DNA of 64,000 nt from assembly GCF_018736105.1 (NCBI RefSeq), contig NZ_CP076135.1, forward strand, positions 1,734,001-1,798,000. Reading direction: 5' to 3'. The stretch is from Bradyrhizobium sediminis. GTDB lineage: Bacteria; Pseudomonadota; Alphaproteobacteria; Rhizobiales; Xanthobacteraceae. The translations under genes and the position numbers were made by a program. Under the pieces are notes generated by a model that searched no databases, was not told where the DNA came from, and worked only from the letters and a program-made list of their open reading frames with translations. Each line of letters begins with the position of its first letter. Position 1 is the first letter of the stretch. This document shows, in pieces, positions 1-8,751 of this stretch.

Positions 1-1580
1 ATCGTCACGGCTGCGCCCTCATCGTCGACGAGAGCGAGCTCTCCAACCGCCTGCTGGCACGCCAGCGCGGCCCGGCAGCAGTCGACGGCATGATCGGGGT
101 TAAGCGCAGGCGCTCCCCAAAATGCCATCACGGCATCGCCAATGAACTTGTCGATGGTGCCGCCATGGCGCTGAACCTGCGCCGATACCGAGTCGAAATA
201 GCGGGACAGCAAGGGGATGATCCGATCACCCATGCGTTCCGACATTCCGGTAAAGCCTGCCAGGTCGACGAACATCACGCTCATCGATCGCACGGCGCCG
301 CCGAGGCGCGCACCGCCGCCGTCGCTTATTAGACGCTTAACCAGATCGGCAGGGATGTATTTTCTGAACGCAGCGAGCCCCTGCGCCATATCTCCGATAG
401 CTCCGGACAGGTTCTCGATCTCGGTCAGCCGCGACGGATGCCGTTCGACCTTTTCGAGATCGAATCGTTCGACGTGCCTGATTTCGTTGACAACCTTGAG
501 GAGCGGGCCTGCGATCAGACGCTGGGCGAACCAGGCTGAGAACAGGCCGGCGGCAATGATCAGAGCCGCAAGGCCTACGAGCAGTCTCTGGATCGTCATC
601 CGGACCGGTCCCAGAAACTCTGATTCAGGAACAACCGTCACCAGTGACCAGCCCGGAAACGAAATCGGCGTCAGTACCGCTTCGTAGGCTTGATCACCTT
701 GAAGAACCCGCGTGCGATAGGCGTCTCCCTGCTCGGGGTCATAGCTCAGTGCGGATTGCCGGGCTGCAATCACCGCGACCGGAAAGAGCGGATGGTTGGT
801 CTTGAGCGCGTTGATCTCGTCGGCGTCTGGGTCCGGCGAGGCGATGGCCGCACCGCTACGATCGAGGATGAAGGCTCCCGCCGACTTTCCAACCGTGAGC
901 TGCGACAGGAATCGCGACACCCGGGTCAGTTCGATGACGATGCTGAGCACGCCCTGGCGCTTCTGATCGATGTCGATCGGACCGGCAAGCGCCACGGCAA
1001 GCCGGTCGCTTCCGGGCTGGCTGGTGAGATTGAACCAGCGCGGTCCCACCGATTGCATCGCCTCGTCGAACCATTCCTGCTTGATGACGGAATACGACGT
1101 TTCTTCGGATCGGGTGTCCTTGAAGCGGAGATCGCCGTCGACCAGCTCATAGCGGTCGATCCGCAGCTTCAACTGACTGTCGGGAGCTTTCTCGGGAAGT
1201 TCCAGCATCTCGACAGCCGCGTCGCCGAGTTTGTGAACAGCAGAGAGCGATCCGTCCGGCCAGCCGAACACCACCCATGAAATGGTCGGCTGGGCCTGCA
1301 ACTGCGAGAGGAAAACGAACCTGCGTTTCTCGGCTTCCCGCGGATCGAGGACGCCGCCCTGAAACAGGGTGCGGACGGCGGCATGGGCGGATCTGGCCTC
1401 CGTCGTGATCGACTGCAGCTCATCGCCGACGGCAGAGACGATCTGCTCGTTGATCGTGGTGGCAAGCGTCTGGCTGGTTTGTTCGGCGGTTCTCCACCAC
1501 AGCAGATGAACGCCTACAGCGCTGACGATGATAGACGCCAGCACAAGTCCTGAAATAGCGCTGCGAATTCCGATGCGCAT
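1..1580 (-). CDS. Membrane-anchored class III adenylate/guanylate cyclase (C-terminus cut by window edge)
   Basis: About 526 codons are visible reading leftward with no stop before base 1, so the C-terminus is missing. The start ATG at 1580 has AGGTGA just upstream. A first hydrophobic segment (about residues 8-26) is followed by a long periplasmic region of dCache-like size, a second membrane segment near residues 331-352 and a HAMP-like linker. The catalytic domain begins near residue 430. It shows the metal-binding Asp in FVDLAGFTGMSERMGD and the substrate/second-metal motif IDKFIGDAVMAFWGAP; the Lys in this motif favours ATP. By family knowledge it makes cyclic nucleotide in response to an extracytoplasmic signal. 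Ligand and regulation are not visible. It is convergent with nothing and divergent from the bufferin operon. Confidence 0.85.
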   Translation of the reverse strand, partial: MRIGIRSAISGLVLASIIVSAVGVHLLWWRTAEQTSQTLATTINEQIVSAVGDELQSITTEARSAHAAVRTLFQGGVLDPREAEKRRFVFLSQLQAQPTISWVVFGWPDGSLSAVHKLGDAAVEMLELPEKAPDSQLKLRIDRYELVDGDLRFKDTRSEETSYSVIKQEWFDEAMQSVGPRWFNLTSQPGSDRLAVALAGPIDIDQKRQGVLSIVIELTRVSRFLSQLTVGKSAGAFILDRSGAAIASPDPDADEINALKTNHPLFPVAVIAARQSALSYDPEQGDAYRTRVLQGDQAYEAVLTPISFPGWSLVTVVPESEFLGPVRMTIQRLLVGLAALIIAAGLFSAWFAQRLIAGPLLKVVNEIRHVERFDLEKVERHPSRLTEIENLSGAIGDMAQGLAAFRKYIPADLVKRLISDGGGARLGGAVRSMSVMFVDLAGFTGMSERMGDRIIPLLSRYFDSVSAQVQRHGGTIDKFIGDAVMAFWGAPALNPDHAVDCCRAALACQQAVGELALVDDEGAAVT

Positions 1581-1775: not shown

Positions 1776-1801
1776 GTAACCAACAGCAAACCTTGTGCGT
1801 A
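1776..1801 (+). promoter_or_regulatory. ECF-sigma-type promoter for the bufferin operon
   Basis: GTAACC at 1776-1781, then exactly 16 bases, then CGTA at 1798-1801. The -35 GTAACC/-10 CGTA pattern with this spacing is the classic extracytoplasmic-function sigma promoter of alphaproteobacteria. In Caulobacter, bufferin genes belong to an ECF (SigF) regulon with a very similar motif. The bufA start lies about 80 bases downstream of the expected transcription start. No sigma or anti-sigma gene lies in the window. Confidence 0.6.
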
Positions 1802-1887
1802 CCTATGCTGGGTACAGGCCGGTCGGCTGGAGATCATTCGGCGGCCCAGGCCTGTCCTTGTCAGAACCCCATTTAGGAGGAATGCTC

Positions 1888-2145
1888 ATGAAACTTACTT
1901 CCCGGTCCGGCGCCGCCATCGCCGCCGCAGCCGCAAGCCTGTTCCTGGCGGGAACGACGCTGTCGACGGTTGCCTATGCGGCCGGCGAAGGTCACTGCGT
2001 CGGCGCAAATGCCTGCAAGGGCCAGAGCGCCTGCAAGAGCGCTTCGAACGCCTGCAAGGGCCAGAATGCATGCAAGGGCCAGGGCTTCTCGGCGATGACC
2101 AAGGAAAAATGTGCCGCGGTGAAGGGCAAGTTCCAGCCGGGTTGA
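1888..2145 (+). CDS. bufA: Bufferin-type metallophore precursor (BufA2-like, Cys-rich, exported)
   Basis: An 85-residue protein. The start is at 1888 because AGGAGG (1875-1880) sits 7 bases before it; the ATG at 1882 would be too close. Residues 1-32 form a Sec-type signal peptide ending VAYA. The mature part carries six cysteines (37, 43, 49, 56, 62, 75), with three CKGQ units and a CKSA variant. This is the pattern of the BufA2 class of bufferins, in which an MNIO enzyme converts core cysteines to 5-thiooxazoles that bind copper. Assignment rests on the cysteine pattern plus the downstream DUF692 and DUF2063 partners. The product is expected to be periplasmic and to sequester metal. The exact modified residues cannot be read from sequence. 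Confidence 0.88.
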   Translation: MKLTSRSGAAIAAAAASLFLAGTTLSTVAYAAGEGHCVGANACKGQSACKSASNACKGQNACKGQGFSAMTKEKCAAVKGKFQPG

Positions 2146-2265
2146 TCTGTCCTGTTCGGGAGCTACAGGCCACAGGCTCATTTTCGTGGCAATCCGGACC
2201 GTTCCAAGGCGCCAGAGAGCGATATGGCCGGTGTCCATCGCCGGCCCGCCACCAGCAGAGGCCAA

Positions 2266-3168
2266 ATGAACATTGCAGGCAAATCGTCGCAACCGACTTT
2301 GCAACCGATGACAGGTCGTCAGATCGATGCGGGCAAGCCGCCGTTTCTCGGCTTTGGGCTCGGGCTGCGTGCGCAGCACTATGATGAGATCCTCAGCGGA
2401 AATCCGCCGATCGACTGGTTCGAGATCATCAGCGAAAACTACATGCTGCCGGGTGGCCAACCGCTTCGGGTGCTGGACAAGATTCGTGCGCGCTACCCGG
2501 TGGTGATGCACGGCGTGTCGCTTTCGATCGCGTCGACGGCGCCGCCCAATTTCGAGTATTTGCGGGAGTTGCGTGATCTCGCGCGCCGGGTCGAACCGCA
2601 GTGGATATCGGACCATTTGTGCTGGACCGGTGTGCATGGCAAGAACCTGCACGATCTGCTGCCGATACCATACACCCGCGAGGCGCTCGATCACGTGGTG
2701 GACCGCGTTCAGCTGGTTCAGGACTATCTCGGCCGCGCCCTGGTGATCGAGAATGCCTCGACCTATGTGCAGTTCAACAATTCCGAAATGACGGAGTGGG
2801 AATTCATCTCGGAGCTCGCACGCCGCTCCGGATGCTGGCTGCTGTTCGATGTCAACAATGTCTATGTCAGCGGCTTCAACCACGGATTCGACCCCTATGC
2901 CTTCCTTGAAGGCATTCCGGCGGACCGGGTGGTCCAGTTTCACATGGCCGGGCATAGCCATATGGGCACCCACATCATCGATACCCACGATCATCCGGTG
3001 TGCGAAGATGTCTGGGACCTCTACGCCGCAGCCCTGAAGCGCTTCGGTCGCGTCTCGACCATGATCGAGCGCGACGACAATATCCCGCCACTCGACGAGC
3101 TCATTGTCGAAGTCAACCGGACCCGGGAGATCGCCGGGAAGGTCTTGGCGGATGGACAAACGGGATGA
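2266..3168 (+). CDS. bufB: MNIO-family (DUF692) peptide-modifying enzyme BufB
   Basis: About 300 residues with a TIM-barrel MNIO/DUF692 signature: GFGLGLRAQHYDEIL near the N-terminus, WFEIISENYM, HGVSLSI, SDHLCWTG, VIENAS, LLFDVNNVYVS, then FHMAGHS and DTHDHPV, which supply the His/Asp/Glu ligands of the multinuclear iron centre. Family knowledge: MNIO enzymes use mixed-valent iron to oxidise cysteines of a RiPP precursor, here presumably BufA encoded just upstream. The start is uncertain. The ATG at 2266 has AGAGG 4 bases upstream; an in-frame ATG at 2224 and another at 2308 are alternatives. The stop overlaps the bufC start (ATGA), implying translational coupling. Confidence 0.9.
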   Translation: MNIAGKSSQPTLQPMTGRQIDAGKPPFLGFGLGLRAQHYDEILSGNPPIDWFEIISENYMLPGGQPLRVLDKIRARYPVVMHGVSLSIASTAPPNFEYLRELRDLARRVEPQWISDHLCWTGVHGKNLHDLLPIPYTREALDHVVDRVQLVQDYLGRALVIENASTYVQFNNSEMTEWEFISELARRSGCWLLFDVNNVYVSGFNHGFDPYAFLEGIPADRVVQFHMAGHSHMGTHIIDTHDHPVCEDVWDLYAAALKRFGRVSTMIERDDNIPPLDELIVEVNRTREIAGKVLADGQTG

Positions 3169-3950
3169 GCGATCTGGCGCGGCAACAGAGCGAGTTTCAG
3201 CGCTGCATATTGGCCGGTGAAGACTCTGTTCTCACGGAAATTCTCGATAGCCCGCGGGAAAGGCGCGACGTGCTGCTTGGGGTTTACAGGCATGCTTACG
3301 GTTCGCGGCTGGTCGAGGCCATGCGCAACGACCACAAGCTGCTGCACAGCTATCTCGGCGACGAGATGTTTGATGAGATGGGGTATGCCTATGTCGCGGC
3401 GAACCCCTCGCAGCATCCGAACCTGCGCTGGTTTGCGCAAGCTCTTCCGGAATTTCTGAAATCATCGGCACCCTACAGCAATTACCCCATCCTGTCCGAT
3501 CTTGCCGCGCTTGAAAAAGCCCTCAACGATGCTTTCGATGCCAAGGATGCGCCGACGCTTGCCGTTGCCGATATGGCCGGTTTTGCTCCGGAGGTCTGGA
3601 ACGATCTCGAATTCATGTCCCACCCCAGTGCCATCAGGCTCGACCTGAGCACCAATGTGTCCGCAGTCTGGCTGGCGCTCAAGAATGACGAGACCCCGCC
3701 GGATGCCGTGGCGCTGAAAGAGCCCAGCCGCCTCCTGATATGGCGCCAGGACGTGACGCCGATGTTCCGCGAGCTTTCCACCGAAGAAGCGATGATGTGG
3801 GACGAGGCCGCGCGCGGAATTCCGTTCGGGGTGCTTTGCTCGATGTTGGCGACCTATGACGACCCCGAAGGCGCTGCAGCCAGAGGTGCCGGCTACCTGC
3901 ACGGCTGGGTGACGGCGGGACTTCTGGCGGATGTTTCCGGCGACAAGTGA
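3165..3950 (+). CDS. bufC: BufC, DUF2063-type partner protein of the MNIO enzyme
   Basis: A 261-residue protein starting MSDLARQQSEFQ. It begins in an ATGA overlap with bufB and has the DUF2063 N-terminal pattern: RQQ..F...I, then RRDVLLGVYRHAYGSRLVEAM, LGDEMFDEMGYAYVAANPSQHPNLRWF and LPEFL. DUF2063 proteins act as the substrate-recognition or delivery partner for DUF692 enzymes in bufferin and related RiPP pathways. Position and overlap strongly support a BufA-BufB-BufC operon. It has no signal peptide, so it is cytoplasmic like BufB. The C-terminal half is typical of the family in being weakly conserved. Confidence 0.88.
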   Translation: MSDLARQQSEFQRCILAGEDSVLTEILDSPRERRDVLLGVYRHAYGSRLVEAMRNDHKLLHSYLGDEMFDEMGYAYVAANPSQHPNLRWFAQALPEFLKSSAPYSNYPILSDLAALEKALNDAFDAKDAPTLAVADMAGFAPEVWNDLEFMSHPSAIRLDLSTNVSAVWLALKNDETPPDAVALKEPSRLLIWRQDVTPMFRELSTEEAMMWDEAARGIPFGVLCSMLATYDDPEGAAARGAGYLHGWVTAGLLADVSGDK

Positions 3951-3987: not shown

Positions 3988-4977
3988 ATGTGTCTCCAGA
4001 TGAGGGATATCGAAAGATCGAACGGTATCGTGCCGGCCGTGATCGCAGTGCTGGCGCTGCTCGTGCTGTGTCCGTTGCGCGCAGATGCGCAATCGGAATT
4101 CCTGCGCGGCGATCGAATGCCGTACGATGCATTCGACGGGCTCGACAAGATCGACCTCGATGTTTCCGGCGGCGTGATTCATGCCGCATTTGCCCCCGGC
4201 GACCTTTCGCTGCCAAAGGACAAGGTTCTGGATTGGGTGAGAGCGGCGGCCCGTGCCGTTTCGACCTATTACGGGCGGTTTCCCGTCAAATCGCTGAAGC
4301 TCCTGCTGGTGCCGGTCGACGGTCAGCGTGTCCGGGGCGGGACCACATGGGGCTATCGCGGCGCCGCCATTCGGGTGCTGCTCGGTCGCGATTCCACCGA
4401 GGAGGATCTCCGCCGCGACTGGATCATGGTCCACGAGATGGTGCATCTGGCTCTTCCCGACGTGCAGCGGCGCTATAGCTGGTTATCGGAAGGACTGGCG
4501 GTGTATATCGAGCCGATCGCGCGCGTACAGGCCGGAGACTTGGCCGCAAAATCCATCTGGCAAGCGATGATGCGGGACATGCCCAAGGGGTTGCCGCAGG
4601 CCGGCGATCAGGGACTCGACAATACCGATAGCTGGGGCCGGAAATACTGGGGTGGTGCCATGTTCTGCCTGCTGGCCGATATAGAAATTCGCAAGCGGAC
4701 ATCCAACCGGCTCGGCCTGCGAGATGCGATGCAAGGTGTCATCGCGGCCGGCGGCAGTCATGAGGTCAATTGGCCCATCGAGCGCATTCTCTCGACCGCC
4801 GACAAGGCGGTCGGCGTGGATGTGCTTACAGATCTCCACAAGCTGATGGGACCGAAGCCCACTGCACCCGATCTCGATAGCCTTTGGCTTGAACTGGGAC
4901 TAACGATGCGTGGAGGTCATTTGAATTTTGATAATGTTGCACCGCTTGCAGCGATCCGAGAGTCTATCACCGAGTAA
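3988..4977 (+). CDS. Exported HExxH zinc metallopeptidase-like protein (gluzincin type)
   Basis: About 329 residues. A hydrophobic stretch after the N-terminus (NGIVPAVIAVLALLVLCPL) ending ADAQ indicates export. The motif IMVHEMVHLALP gives HExxH at about residues 149-153. It is followed by WLSEGLAVYIEP, whose Glu lies about 15 residues later, as expected for the third zinc ligand of peptidase-MA/gluzincin folds. I do not recognise the substrate. It begins shortly after bufC on the same strand and may share its transcript; whether it works with bufferin (for instance in processing) is speculation. The start is uncertain, with ATGs at 3988 and 4000 in frame. GGAGG at 3968-3972 is rather far upstream. 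Confidence 0.65.
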   Translation: MCLQMRDIERSNGIVPAVIAVLALLVLCPLRADAQSEFLRGDRMPYDAFDGLDKIDLDVSGGVIHAAFAPGDLSLPKDKVLDWVRAAARAVSTYYGRFPVKSLKLLLVPVDGQRVRGGTTWGYRGAAIRVLLGRDSTEEDLRRDWIMVHEMVHLALPDVQRRYSWLSEGLAVYIEPIARVQAGDLAAKSIWQAMMRDMPKGLPQAGDQGLDNTDSWGRKYWGGAMFCLLADIEIRKRTSNRLGLRDAMQGVIAAGGSHEVNWPIERILSTADKAVGVDVLTDLHKLMGPKPTAPDLDSLWLELGLTMRGGHLNFDNVAPLAAIRESITE

Positions 4978-5623: not shown

Positions 5624-6199
5624 ATGCGAATACTTGTCCTCAATGCCCATCCAGACCAAGGTAGCTTCAGTGATGCCGTAGCAGCAGCCTATGTGGAAGG
5701 TGCTGGCGAGATGGGTCACGAGGTGAAGAGCGTCATGCTCCGTGAGCTGCAGTTCGATTTAGTGTTGCGTGGCGGTTATCACAGCAACAAACCTCTCGAA
5801 CCCGATATCGCGCAACAACAAGAACTTATTAGCTGGTGCCAGCATCTTGTCGTGATATCGCCGAACTGGTGGTGGGCAGCGCCTGCCCTTCTCAAGGGCT
5901 ACGTCGACCGCGTTTTCCTGCCGGAGTTCGCGATGCGCTATCACGCCCGCTTTCCCTACGTGGAACCGCTCCTGCGCGGGCGGTCGGCGCGCGTCATTTA
6001 CACCCAGAACTCGCCGAGGCTCGTCGGCTGGCTTTTTCGCGGGGACCTGTTCTGGCGGTGGATCTCTCACGCGGTGCTCGGGCATTGCGGATTTCACCCC
6101 GTGAGGCGTCTTGCGATGTATGGTGCAAAGGATGCATCGGCCGCATGCAAGTCTCACTTTCTGGACTCGGCGCGAAAACTGGGGCGCGGCGGAGCGTAG
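5624..6199 (+). CDS. NAD(P)H:quinone oxidoreductase family flavoprotein (flavodoxin-2 fold)
   Basis: A 191-residue protein. The N-terminus MRILVLNAHPDQGSFSDA is the FMN/FAD phosphate-binding beta-alpha turn of the DT-diaphorase/MdaB/YwrO family. SPNWWWAAPALLKGYVDRVFLPEFA matches the conserved P.WW...P..LKG..DRV segment that lines the flavin and dimer interface. The expected reaction is two-electron reduction of quinones or related electrophiles with NAD(P)H in the cytoplasm. The length is near the family norm. It stands alone between two long non-coding stretches. The TetR regulator 525 bases downstream on the same strand could regulate it, but nothing in the sequence shows this. Confidence 0.85.
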   Translation: MRILVLNAHPDQGSFSDAVAAAYVEGAGEMGHEVKSVMLRELQFDLVLRGGYHSNKPLEPDIAQQQELISWCQHLVVISPNWWWAAPALLKGYVDRVFLPEFAMRYHARFPYVEPLLRGRSARVIYTQNSPRLVGWLFRGDLFWRWISHAVLGHCGFHPVRRLAMYGAKDASAACKSHFLDSARKLGRGGA

Positions 6200-6723
6200 A
6201 AGGGAGGTCTGCGCACCCAAATCGTGAGACGAGTCCAGGTCCGAGCAACGGGTGCGTCGGATCGAGCGCCGTGATCTGCTCACCCGATGATTCGTCAGAC
6301 TCTCGAGAGGAAATTTCGATGTGCCCTTGCTGGAAGGGATCGACTGGCGTGCACCATGGGTGCAGTGAAGCGAACGGCGCGACGCTTTCTGTTGCGTGCT
6401 GATGCAGCGGCAACACCGAGAGCCCGGGAACGAGGCCCGGTGCAGACGGCGCGCGCTGTGTCGATTATCACATGTTCGGTGTTATCTGGCCCGCCCCGTG
6501 GCCCGAGCTGGCGGTCTGTTGCATTGGAGGCCCTTAGGCTATTATAATCCGACCAGCCGTTCAAACAATTTCTGCATATGATTTGCATTTTTATTTTGGA
6601 GGGGCCCGGCGATTCTTGAAAAGATGATGGCGCGGAGGTCAGTCTGCGTCGAATGTGGGTGCGACAGGCCGATGAAGCGGTGCGGGAAATCGAGCCGAGA
6701 CGACGAAGTCAGAAGGAATCGGA
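6200..6723. other. Long intergenic region upstream of the TetR gene
   Basis: About 520 bases with no supportable gene; small frames on both strands lack domains and ribosome sites. Its right part carries a sigma70-like promoter (separate entry) and an AT-rich stretch at 6541-6600. The long 5' leader of roughly 170 bases between that promoter and the TetR ATG at 6724 is unexplained. Confidence 0.5.
6519..6548 (+). promoter_or_regulatory. Sigma70-like promoter upstream of the TetR-family gene
   Basis: TTGCAT at 6519-6524 and a consensus TATAAT at 6543-6548, 18 bases apart. This is unusual in such GC-rich DNA. It points towards the TetR-family gene at 6724. The segment just downstream, CCGACCAGCCGTTC (6549-6562), could hold an operator, but its symmetry is poor. 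Confidence 0.4.
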
Positions 6724-7359
6724 ATGGCGCGAACACGCTCTGAAAATTACGACGGCATTCATCTCGGGATCCTGACCCAGGCGGCCGCGTTGTTTTCGGC
6801 GCAGGGGTACATGCGCAGTTCGATCGCCGACCTTGCCGACGCCTGCAAGCTGTCGCGCGGCGCGCTTTATCACTATTTCGACTCCAAGGAAGCGATCCTG
6901 TTTGCGATCCTCGATGCGCACATTCGGGAAATGATTGCGCATGTCGATGCCGCGATTGCCGAGGGCGGCCCGACACTGACGCAATTCAGGAACGTCATCC
7001 GCACGACCGTCGAGGTCAACGCCAAGTCGCCGCACGAGCAGCGCGTCCTGATTCACGATCTGTCGTTTCTGAACGAAGACGAGCAGCACACGATCAAGGA
7101 TCTCGAGCGCCAGCTCGTCGATACCGTCACCGATCTGTTGGTCAGGCTCGACGCCGAAGGCAAGATCGTCAAGCGCACCAGGAAGATCTATACGATGATC
7201 CTGTTCGGGATCATCAACTATACCTACACTTGGTACGACCCGAAGGGCGGCATCGGCCCCAGGGAATTCGCCGACATCGCAGTCGATCTGTTCCTGAACG
7301 GGTTTGCGCCCGGCGATGCGGCCAGGCCTGCTCCGGCCGGCCGACGCGAGAAGGTCTAG
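6724..7359 (+). CDS. TetR/AcrR family transcriptional regulator
   Basis: A 211-residue protein. The N-terminal helix-turn-helix is clear: ILTQAAALFSAQGYMRSSIADLADACKLSRGALYHYFDSKEAILFAILDAH (about residues 15-65, written here as one domain in pieces: AAALFSAQGY, SIADLADACKLSRGALYHYF, SKEAILFAIL). The C-terminal ligand domain ends YTYTWYDPKGGIGPREFAD, a pattern seen in regulators of fatty-acid or aromatic acyl-CoA metabolism that carry TetR_C_33-like domains. The effector is unknown. It is the only clear regulator near the flavoprotein at 5624. The start is preceded by GGAATCGGA, a modest ribosome site. Confidence 0.9.
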   Translation: MARTRSENYDGIHLGILTQAAALFSAQGYMRSSIADLADACKLSRGALYHYFDSKEAILFAILDAHIREMIAHVDAAIAEGGPTLTQFRNVIRTTVEVNAKSPHEQRVLIHDLSFLNEDEQHTIKDLERQLVDTVTDLLVRLDAEGKIVKRTRKIYTMILFGIINYTYTWYDPKGGIGPREFADIAVDLFLNGFAPGDAARPAPAGRREKV

Positions 7360-7832: not shown

Positions 7833-8751
7833 CAGCCTGATTCAATCTTTCGGCGGGAAAAGCCGAACGATCGAGCAGCATTTTTTCAAAGGCGCGAGCC
7901 GAGGGCATGGCGACCCTGCCGGGCAGCTTCAATTGCCACAAGGTGCGTTCGATCGTCATGTCGCGCAGATCGAGCACTTTCAGGCGCCCGAGCTGCACCT
8001 GATCCTTCACCGTGACGGCCGATACGATCGCGATGCCGAGTCCGGCGGCAACGACCTGCTTGATCGCCGCGGTGCTGCCGATTTCCAGGGTCCGCAGCGG
8101 TTCGATGCCGCGGGCGGCAAGGGCCTGAGTCACCACCTCGCGGGACCCTGAGCCCGGTTCGCGGACGATCAACACTTCATTTTCCAGCTGCCTGGGATCG
8201 ATCGGTCCAGCCTCTGCGGAGAATGCATGATCGGGCGCGGCGATCAGCTTCATGACGTCGGTAAGCCAGGGCTCCGCGATCAGATTTTTGTCGTCGACCG
8301 GCCCCTCCACCAGGCCGATGTCAATGTCCTGCGCAACCATCTGCTCGGCGATGTCGCGGGTGTTGGCGCTGATGAGATGGAGGTCGACGCCCGGATAGGC
8401 CCGGTGAAATGCACCGAGATATCGCGGGATTATGTAGGTGGCGATCGTCGTACTGGCGCCGATCCGCAGCGAGCCGTTGTGTAACCCCCGCACGGCGGAC
8501 AGCTCATCCTCGGCCGCGCGCTCGATCGCGAACAGCGCCTCGGCGCGCTGGGACAGCGCGAGCCCTTCCGGGGTCGGCACCACGCCCTTGGGAGAGCGAT
8601 TGAGCAATCGGCAGCCGACCTGAAGCTCGAAGTCGCGTACGCCCTTGGAGATCGCGGGTTGGCTGACATTGAGTATTTCAGCAGCCTTCGAAAAGCTTCC
8701 ACTGCGAACGACGGCGGCGAACATGCGAAGCAGATGAAGGTTGAGGGACAT
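7822..8751 (-). CDS. LysR family regulator (CysB/CbbR-like), divergent from YeiH-type exporter
   Basis: A 309-residue protein with an N-terminal winged HTH (LLRMFAAVVRSGSFSKAAEI, LNVSQPAISKGVRDFE), typical of LysR, and a C-terminal periplasmic-binding-protein-like effector domain (GSLRIGASTTIATYIIPRYL). The length matches the family. It is divergent from the yeiH homologue with only 86 bases between them. This is the usual arrangement for YeiH exporters and their LysR regulators, so it probably controls that gene and itself. The effector is unknown; sulfur or nitrogen compounds are plausible by analogy. Confidence 0.9.
   Translation of the reverse strand: MSLNLHLLRMFAAVVRSGSFSKAAEILNVSQPAISKGVRDFELQVGCRLLNRSPKGVVPTPEGLALSQRAEALFAIERAAEDELSAVRGLHNGSLRIGASTTIATYIIPRYLGAFHRAYPGVDLHLISANTRDIAEQMVAQDIDIGLVEGPVDDKNLIAEPWLTDVMKLIAAPDHAFSAEAGPIDPRQLENEVLIVREPGSGSREVVTQALAARGIEPLRTLEIGSTAAIKQVVAAGLGIAIVSAVTVKDQVQLGRLKVLDLRDMTIERTLWQLKLPGRVAMPSARAFEKMLLDRSAFPAERLNQAASA

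Follow-up and report, generated by a model that had tools for sequence, protein, structure and literature searches.

Bufferin gene clusters have been described as a core of precursor, MNIO, DUF2063 and DoxX genes (Antoine 2025, PMC12452194). In that survey, thiooxazole formation, copper binding and export by the Sec pathway are shown for bufferins of the Buf1 type and are preliminary for Buf2, and the genes for a sigma factor and its NrsF anti-sigma factor are placed with Buf1, not Buf2, clusters. We analyzed a stretch of 64,000 nucleotides (nt) of the Bradyrhizobium sediminis genome (the window, G000:C1:1734001-1798000; genome G000, 5.45 Mb) that carries an operon of three genes, bufA2, bufB and bufC. 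This locus is likely a BufA2 bufferin system under sigma-F-type control, with a linked peptidase-like protein that may act on the exported bufferin. The sequence evidence for it covers family membership, gene layout, conserved promoters, the linkage of a sigma/NrsF pair, and the co-occurrence of the peptidase gene. The features concerned within the window are as follows.

1776-1801, + strand: promoter motif of the extracytoplasmic function (ECF) sigma-F type, GTAACC-N16-CGTA, 86 nt ahead of the bufA2 ATG
1888-2145, + strand: bufA2, operonic bufferin precursor of 85 residues with six Cys (ATG at 1888, stop codon ending at 2145; NCBIfam model)
2266-3168, + strand: bufB, MNIO (DUF692) maturase with an ERDD motif (ATG at 2266, stop codon ending at 3168; NCBIfam and Pfam)
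3165-3950, + strand: bufC, DUF2063 with a domain of the RiPP recognition element (RRE) type (ATG at 3165, stop codon ending at 3950; Pfam and structure model)
3988-4977, + strand: secreted-looking HExxH protein with an M61/M1-like fold (alternative start at 4000; alignment and structure match)

An earlier note, made from the sequence alone, had proposed a BufA2-type bufferin trio and suggested a hidden Markov model search as a check on it. That search places the precursor inside the BufA2 family, at 86.6 bits against NCBIfam model NF050166 (cut-off 60). BufB scored 384.2 bits against NF050167 (MNIO_BufB; cut-off 310), both cut-offs being those of curated equivalog models, and 375.1 bits against Pfam PF05114. 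BufC matched PF09836 (DUF2063) at 67.1 bits (cut-off 27.2) and fell below the NCBIfam HvfC model (14.2 bits, cut-off 142). The best Pfam match of BufA2, DUF7640, was not used, its 21.8 bits being below the cut-off of 28.1. The open reading frames (ORFs) given for the trio, and the ATGA overlap that joins bufB and bufC at 3165-3168, agree with the sequence. Judged by eye, the BufA2 N-terminus has a charged start, a hydrophobic stretch and an AYA-A site, the Sec-type part spanning about 1888-1980. On these matches the locus is a known type of operon, a BufA2 bufferin trio that adds one more member to an established family. The description of the operon as complete was too narrow, however: the trio is present, but the peptidase-like gene starts 37 nt past bufC and the cluster extends upstream of the window.

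BufB was aligned with structure 3bww, TglH and MbnB, and carries ERDDN where 3bww carries ERDFN. Such a Phe-to-Asp change is reported for MNIOs of the Cys-Lys group, with a modelled interaction with the substrate Lys (Gadgil 2026, PMC13097082); as in that group, an Asp follows the proposed catalytic Asp in BufB. Asp occupies the selectivity position in 70 of 83 BufB-like ORFs from L008-L088, with Ser in one, Thr in one, and no match to the search pattern in the other 11. By sequence, BufC could not be tied to any protein of known structure (a single match, at E 0.65, is chance), and its structure was therefore predicted. The model (45 sequences; predicted local distance difference test, pLDDT, 93.6) matches TglI (8hi7/8hci) and NGO1945 (3dee) over 231-286 columns at E of about 1e-6 and, weakly, the RRE of TbiB1 (5v1v; E 0.84). 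NGO1945 and TglI are the DUF2063-RRE reference in Antoine 2025 (PMC12452194).

The precursor had been described as carrying six Cys in CKGQ units, at an irregular spacing that might entail a different modification pattern. The six Cys are there, at intervals of exactly 6, 6, 7, 6 and 13, but KGQ follows only three of them, the others being followed by VGA, KSA and AAV. Nor is the spacing unusual. Of 80 related loci that we compared, 58 have an ORF with the same intervals no more than 1.6 kb upstream of bufB (6,6,7,6,14 in 8, neither in 14), and 117 of the 120 homologous precursors listed, the best 120 of 6,928, end in 6,6,7,6,13. We therefore discarded the spacing as a peculiarity of this locus: it is the common family pattern, and a deviating modification is not supported by it. 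Cysteine number does vary. A precursor with five Cys, missing the fourth, occurs in genomes G254, G255 and G256, and is the sole BufA2 found in the first two; the first copy at locus L017 (9218) has four. These natural proteins are ready variants for asking which Cys matter. Among the loci, precursors with four or five Cys were seen at L017, L009, L091 and L093 (6305), and genome G259 has nine BufA2 matches, some below the cut-off.

The upstream part of the cluster lies outside the window. We give it in the coordinates of L008, the wider stretch around the window (window position equals L008 position minus 10000).

L008 4503-5186 (window -5497 to -4814), - strand: NrsF anti-sigma gene
L008 5186-5749, - strand: ECF sigma gene
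L008 5991-6371, + strand: thioredoxin gene, motif at 5921
L008 about 6370-7098, + strand: DsbD gene
L008 7187-7717, + strand: DUF302 gene
L008 7843-8169: fragment of a FAD/pyridine-nucleotide oxidoreductase gene, inside the cluster
L008 8308-8781, + strand: DoxX gene, motif at 8240
L008 8951-8976: promoter motif of the second bufA2
L008 9185-9442, + strand: second bufA2
L008 9461-9489: terminator-like hairpin after the second bufA2
L008 9520-11580, - strand: dCache adenylate/guanylate cyclase gene, of which window positions 1-1580 are the part left by the window edge, which cuts its 3' end

The sigma-F consensus of Caulobacter is GTAACC-N16-CGAA (PMC3511200). The ECF-type promoter that the earlier note had placed ahead of the trio is borne out by the motif GTAACC-N16-CGTA at 1776-1801 and by its conservation: in 16 Bradyrhizobium-type loci, a GTAAC/CG(A/T)A motif with a spacer of 15-17 stands within 300 nt upstream of all 28 bufA2 genes, against 152 of 3,200 random 300-nt windows drawn from these loci on the same strand, with the true sites left in. 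In its strict form, GTAAC-N17-CG(A/T)A, the motif occurs 27 times in the whole genome, and six of these sites fall within 7,652 bp at the cluster. Four precede the thioredoxin, DoxX and two bufA2 genes. The Poisson probability is 9e-13 for six sites and 3e-8 for the four before genes, for a span that was chosen after seeing the matches. The remaining two were considered as promoters and not counted, one (L008 5397) lying within the sigma gene and the other (L008 4150) within a longer ORF upstream of an AhpC/TSA-like stretch. At four of the 21 sites elsewhere in the genome, which we inspected, the genes behind the motif (one a response regulator) had no common theme.

The product of the sigma gene matches PF04542 (43.5 bits) and PF08281 (32.2 bits), and that of its neighbor matches PF06532 (NrsF, 95.3 bits). 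The two genes overlap by one base, and the thioredoxin, DsbD, DUF302 and DoxX genes and the oxidoreductase fragment are divergent from them. Among 265 genomes of the genus, a counterpart of the linked NrsF (at least 83% identity) was found in six, and five (G000, G254, G255, G256 and G258) have the sigma/NrsF pair, bufA2 and bufB on one stretch. More distant arrangements exist as well. G079 has an NrsF of 53% identity whose start is about 0.4 kb away from bufA2, with no sigma match beside it, and a sigma/NrsF pair 7-9 kb away adjoins a second MNIO gene; in G113 a pair at 57% adjoins another MNIO gene, not bufA2. The linkage of the pair to bufA2 suggests that the sigma/NrsF switch, familiar from Buf1 clusters, can accompany Buf2 as well. 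In an alignment of nine NrsF sequences, Caulobacter's not among them, one Cys is invariant, and at a second position the genome's other NrsF has Cys and the remaining eight, including the bufferin-linked NrsF, have His. The His in place of this second Cys might alter the signal that is sensed.

The existence of that other sigma-F/NrsF pair (NrsF at G000:C1:2081265-2081873) raises the possibility that it reads the bufferin promoters, the linked pair serving other genes or adding to its effect. An NrsF match is present in all 36 same-genus genomes of a set of 60 relatives, and the motif is retained in nine loci with tandem bufA2 genes (L010-L017 and L051), which show no match to the linked sigma or NrsF within up to 10 kb on each side (L012 is a short contig). 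With a relaxed pattern, a GTAAC-CGAA-like site appears near the 5' end of the other sigma's longest ORF. The bufA2 motif also reads CGAA in all six copies beside a linked NrsF and CGTA in all 22 others, in genomes that are related and not independent. This split need not mean two readers, because the DoxX motif reads CGAA in eight loci without a linked pair too. In G000, sites of the strict motif are concentrated at the linked pair. We regard a reading by the other pair as possible, at somewhat less than an even chance.

The ORF at 3988-4977 encodes a secreted-looking protein with the motif HEMVH. Its predicted structure (pLDDT 86.0) resembles M61 and M1 metallopeptidases; it has 102 matches in the PDB at E up to 0.001, the best being 7xyo (E 2.7e-9). 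Residues H149, E150, H153 and E168 are invariant in 38 aligned sequences; E168 is the Glu 15 residues after HExxH and would be the third metal ligand. A match to the NCBIfam flagellinolysin model was sub-threshold (12.5 bits, cut-off 205), and among the 120 homologues listed, of 6,877, the name is "hypothetical protein" wherever one is given. BufA2 scored over its cut-off in 75 of the 265 genomes. A match to the peptidase (E up to 1e-20) was found in 70 genomes, all within those 75, and in none of the remaining 190, of which 33 have BufA2 matches below the threshold (Fisher P 1e-58, with relatedness left out of account). Of the 70, 67 carry the gene 1.8-3.0 kb downstream of a bufA2, both on one contig and strand.

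The distance between bufA2 and the peptidase gene is 2.56 kb or more in 55 of these 67 genomes and about 2.0 kb or less, as in G000, in the other 12. The longer distances would fit an extra creatininase-family gene, such as lies between bufC and the peptidase gene in eight related loci. The one of these eight that was scanned, in L010, encodes a protein matching PF02633 at 162 bits; its gene begins 12 nt past bufC and overlaps the peptidase gene by 4 nt. A creatininase-family peptidase, MftE, matures mycofactocin.

Several observations weigh against a sigma-F-controlled system with its own peptidase. Genome-wide, the promoter motif is rarer than its reversed control (27 versus 64 sites; 4 versus 34 in a stricter form), so that, for want of enrichment, the case for the promoters rests on their clustering and conservation. 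In G006 the sigma/NrsF pair is on a contig other than that of bufA2, and in Sinorhizobium the target of the related RpoE7 was not induced by peroxide, cadmium or chromate (PMC6180224). The peptidase-like protein, like its homologues in L018 and L047, matches no Pfam family at E up to 1, and its gene appears in pieces in G028, G131, G161, G183 and L011. Five of the 75 BufA2-positive genomes (G254, G255, G256, G258 and G035) gave no peptidase match, and the peptidase is therefore not essential; G256 and G035 are 67% and 80% complete. Moreover, neighboring genes can co-occur through linkage alone. The trio could thus be ordinary and the peptidase-like gene a passenger, kept near bufBC by gain and loss of the whole block and acting on another target, as the five genomes and the lack of a peptidase homologue in the plasmid collection would also allow. 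Against this, homologues of 59-61% identity lie 24 nt past bufC in Methylobacterium sp. C25 (L018) and 3.7 kb past the bufB start in a metagenome-assembled Rudaea genome (L047), the only two of the 80 loci, some of them short contigs, outside the Bradyrhizobium type with the gene. A 59% homologue follows bufC in G079, and in L010 the 4-nt overlap ties the gene to the creatininase gene behind bufC. We think it somewhat doubtful that the gene is a passenger and propose instead that its product acts on bufferin.

In the working that we propose, metal or oxidant stress would inactivate an NrsF-type anti-sigma factor, and an ECF sigma would read the GTAAC-N17-CG(A/T)A promoters and so induce both bufA2 genes, bufB, bufC, and the DoxX, thioredoxin and DsbD genes. 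BufC would present the precursor, signal peptide included, to BufB, which would oxidize the Cys of Cys-Lys units to thiooxazoles. Sec would then export the modified product, which in the periplasm would chelate copper present in excess, or a different thiophilic metal. Thioredoxin, DsbD and DoxX would care for thiols, and the M61/M1-like protein would trim the exported bufferin or clear metal-loaded or damaged molecules. Here we infer the sigma factor that reads the promoters, the inducing signal, the role of thioredoxin, DsbD and DoxX, and the substrate of the peptidase; thiooxazole formation, copper binding and Sec export are carried over from the family by analogy. A product that chiefly answers oxidants or thiophilic metals other than copper (cadmium, chromate, gold) would agree with the chromate and cadmium response of comparable sigma-F operons in Caulobacter (PMC3511200), with the gold-induced operons and MerC fusions mentioned in Antoine 2025 (PMC12452194), and with the DoxX, thioredoxin and DsbD genes of the cluster. 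Against it, Antoine 2025 (PMC12452194) states that Caulobacter Buf1 is a copper binder that helps the cells grow when copper is in excess, and that preliminary work on Buf2 points the same way. We consider such a product unlikely and keep copper among the metals that the bufferin would chelate.

The second bufA2 sits 2.4 kb upstream of the operonic one, outside the window, with the opposite-strand cyclase gene between them. It has its own promoter motif, and behind it lies a terminator-like hairpin of 12 pairs (as a class, such sites are at chance level in the region, 5 found versus 5.9 expected). The two BufA2 copies are identical over residues 32-68, which include the first five Cys. The same split layout occurs in G256, which allows each part of the stand-alone copy to be compared with its counterpart. 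In the signal part, 77 of 93 sites are like the G256 counterpart and 66 like the operonic copy; in the core, 103 of 108 sites are like the operonic copy and 81 like the G256 counterpart. The stand-alone core thus seems to have been replaced with operonic sequence through gene conversion, which would leave such a pattern.

Antoine 2025 (PMC12452194) took in unrelated genes only if they lay at most 10 bp from a known cluster gene. The gaps measured here, 37 nt in G000, 12 nt in L010 and 24 nt in L018, all exceed this, and such genes would therefore be missed by the survey; its main text mentions "protease" once, in a general way, and "peptidase" and "creatinin" not at all. We found no report of these partners in the literature on bufferins, MNIO, sigma-F/NrsF, creatininase and M61, most subscription journals being beyond reach. 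The peptidase-like gene and the sigma/NrsF pair may be undescribed parts of bufferin systems, and the distribution of the peptidase over the genus suggests a maturation or turnover step of one lineage, new to the literature examined. Tentatively, we extend this to the genus: its Buf2 bufferins could have a dedicated processing or recycling arm, in which a creatininase-family protein and the secreted M61/M1-like peptidase behind bufBC would have the thiooxazole peptide as their target (to trim it, or to release and clear metal-loaded molecules), in some lineages under a bufferin-linked ECF sigma/NrsF switch, with cores exchanged from copy to copy by gene conversion. What is new here is a Buf2 cluster with a linked sigma/NrsF pair, the pairing of peptidase and creatininase genes, and the apparently converted core, all three worth specialist attention.

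Other parts of the region are recorded briefly. The oxidoreductase fragment is 86% identical to a stretch in G006 and remnant-like. Most of the Bradyrhizobium-type loci examined have a dCache cyclase in the neighborhood of bufA2, be it upstream of it, downstream of it or between two copies; no cyclase match was seen near bufA2 in L009, L012, L091, L094 and L096. In the two relatives inspected, L010 (7079-8869) and L014, DoxX and the tandem bufA2 genes flank a gene whose product has a WCHWCH motif; it was not seen in the G000 cluster. No Rfam family reached its gathering score across L008 4000-15500, and the 125-nt stretch between bufA2 and bufB gave no sign of an attenuator, folding no better than shuffles (z -0.94). 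In the plasmid collection, 74 records had 60-80% identity, and none of them spanned 80% of the query.

Among described systems, four groups come closest. The peptidase-like protein shares with the M61/M1 metallopeptidases (7xyo, 4fgm, 6a8z) HExxH, the conserved Glu 15 residues further on and, over the portion that aligns, the fold (TM-score about 0.5 relative to the query, root-mean-square deviation about 5 A); unlike them, it is much shorter, lacks a Pfam match and shows 12-18% identity in the 50 structural alignments listed. With the captophorins fontiphorin, oxazolin and gonophorin (PMC13097082) the trio shares an MNIO, a DUF2063-type partner and, here by family analogy, the conversion of Cys to 5-thiooxazole; the captophorins have a Lys-Cys motif and Phe at the selectivity site, whereas here these are Cys-Lys and Asp. 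An ECF sigma, an anti-sigma and GTAAC-type promoters before MNIO operons are also found in the Caulobacter sigma-F/NrsF regulon with its DUF2282-DUF692-DUF2063-DoxX genes (PMC3511200) and, before a DUF692 operon, in the RpoE7/EcfR7 system of Sinorhizobium (PMC6180224). The precursors differ, being DUF2282 proteins in Caulobacter, a conserved hypothetical membrane protein in Sinorhizobium and BufA2 here, where the operonic -10 element is CGTA. Also close are the Buf2/BufA2 bufferins (NF050166; PMC12452194), with the same precursor, MNIO, DUF2063-RRE partner, nearby DoxX and six Cys at the usual spacing, and which also include tandem and stand-alone precursors; from the Buf2 clusters surveyed there, this locus differs in its linked sigma/NrsF pair, the seemingly converted core of its split copy and its extra peptidase-like gene.

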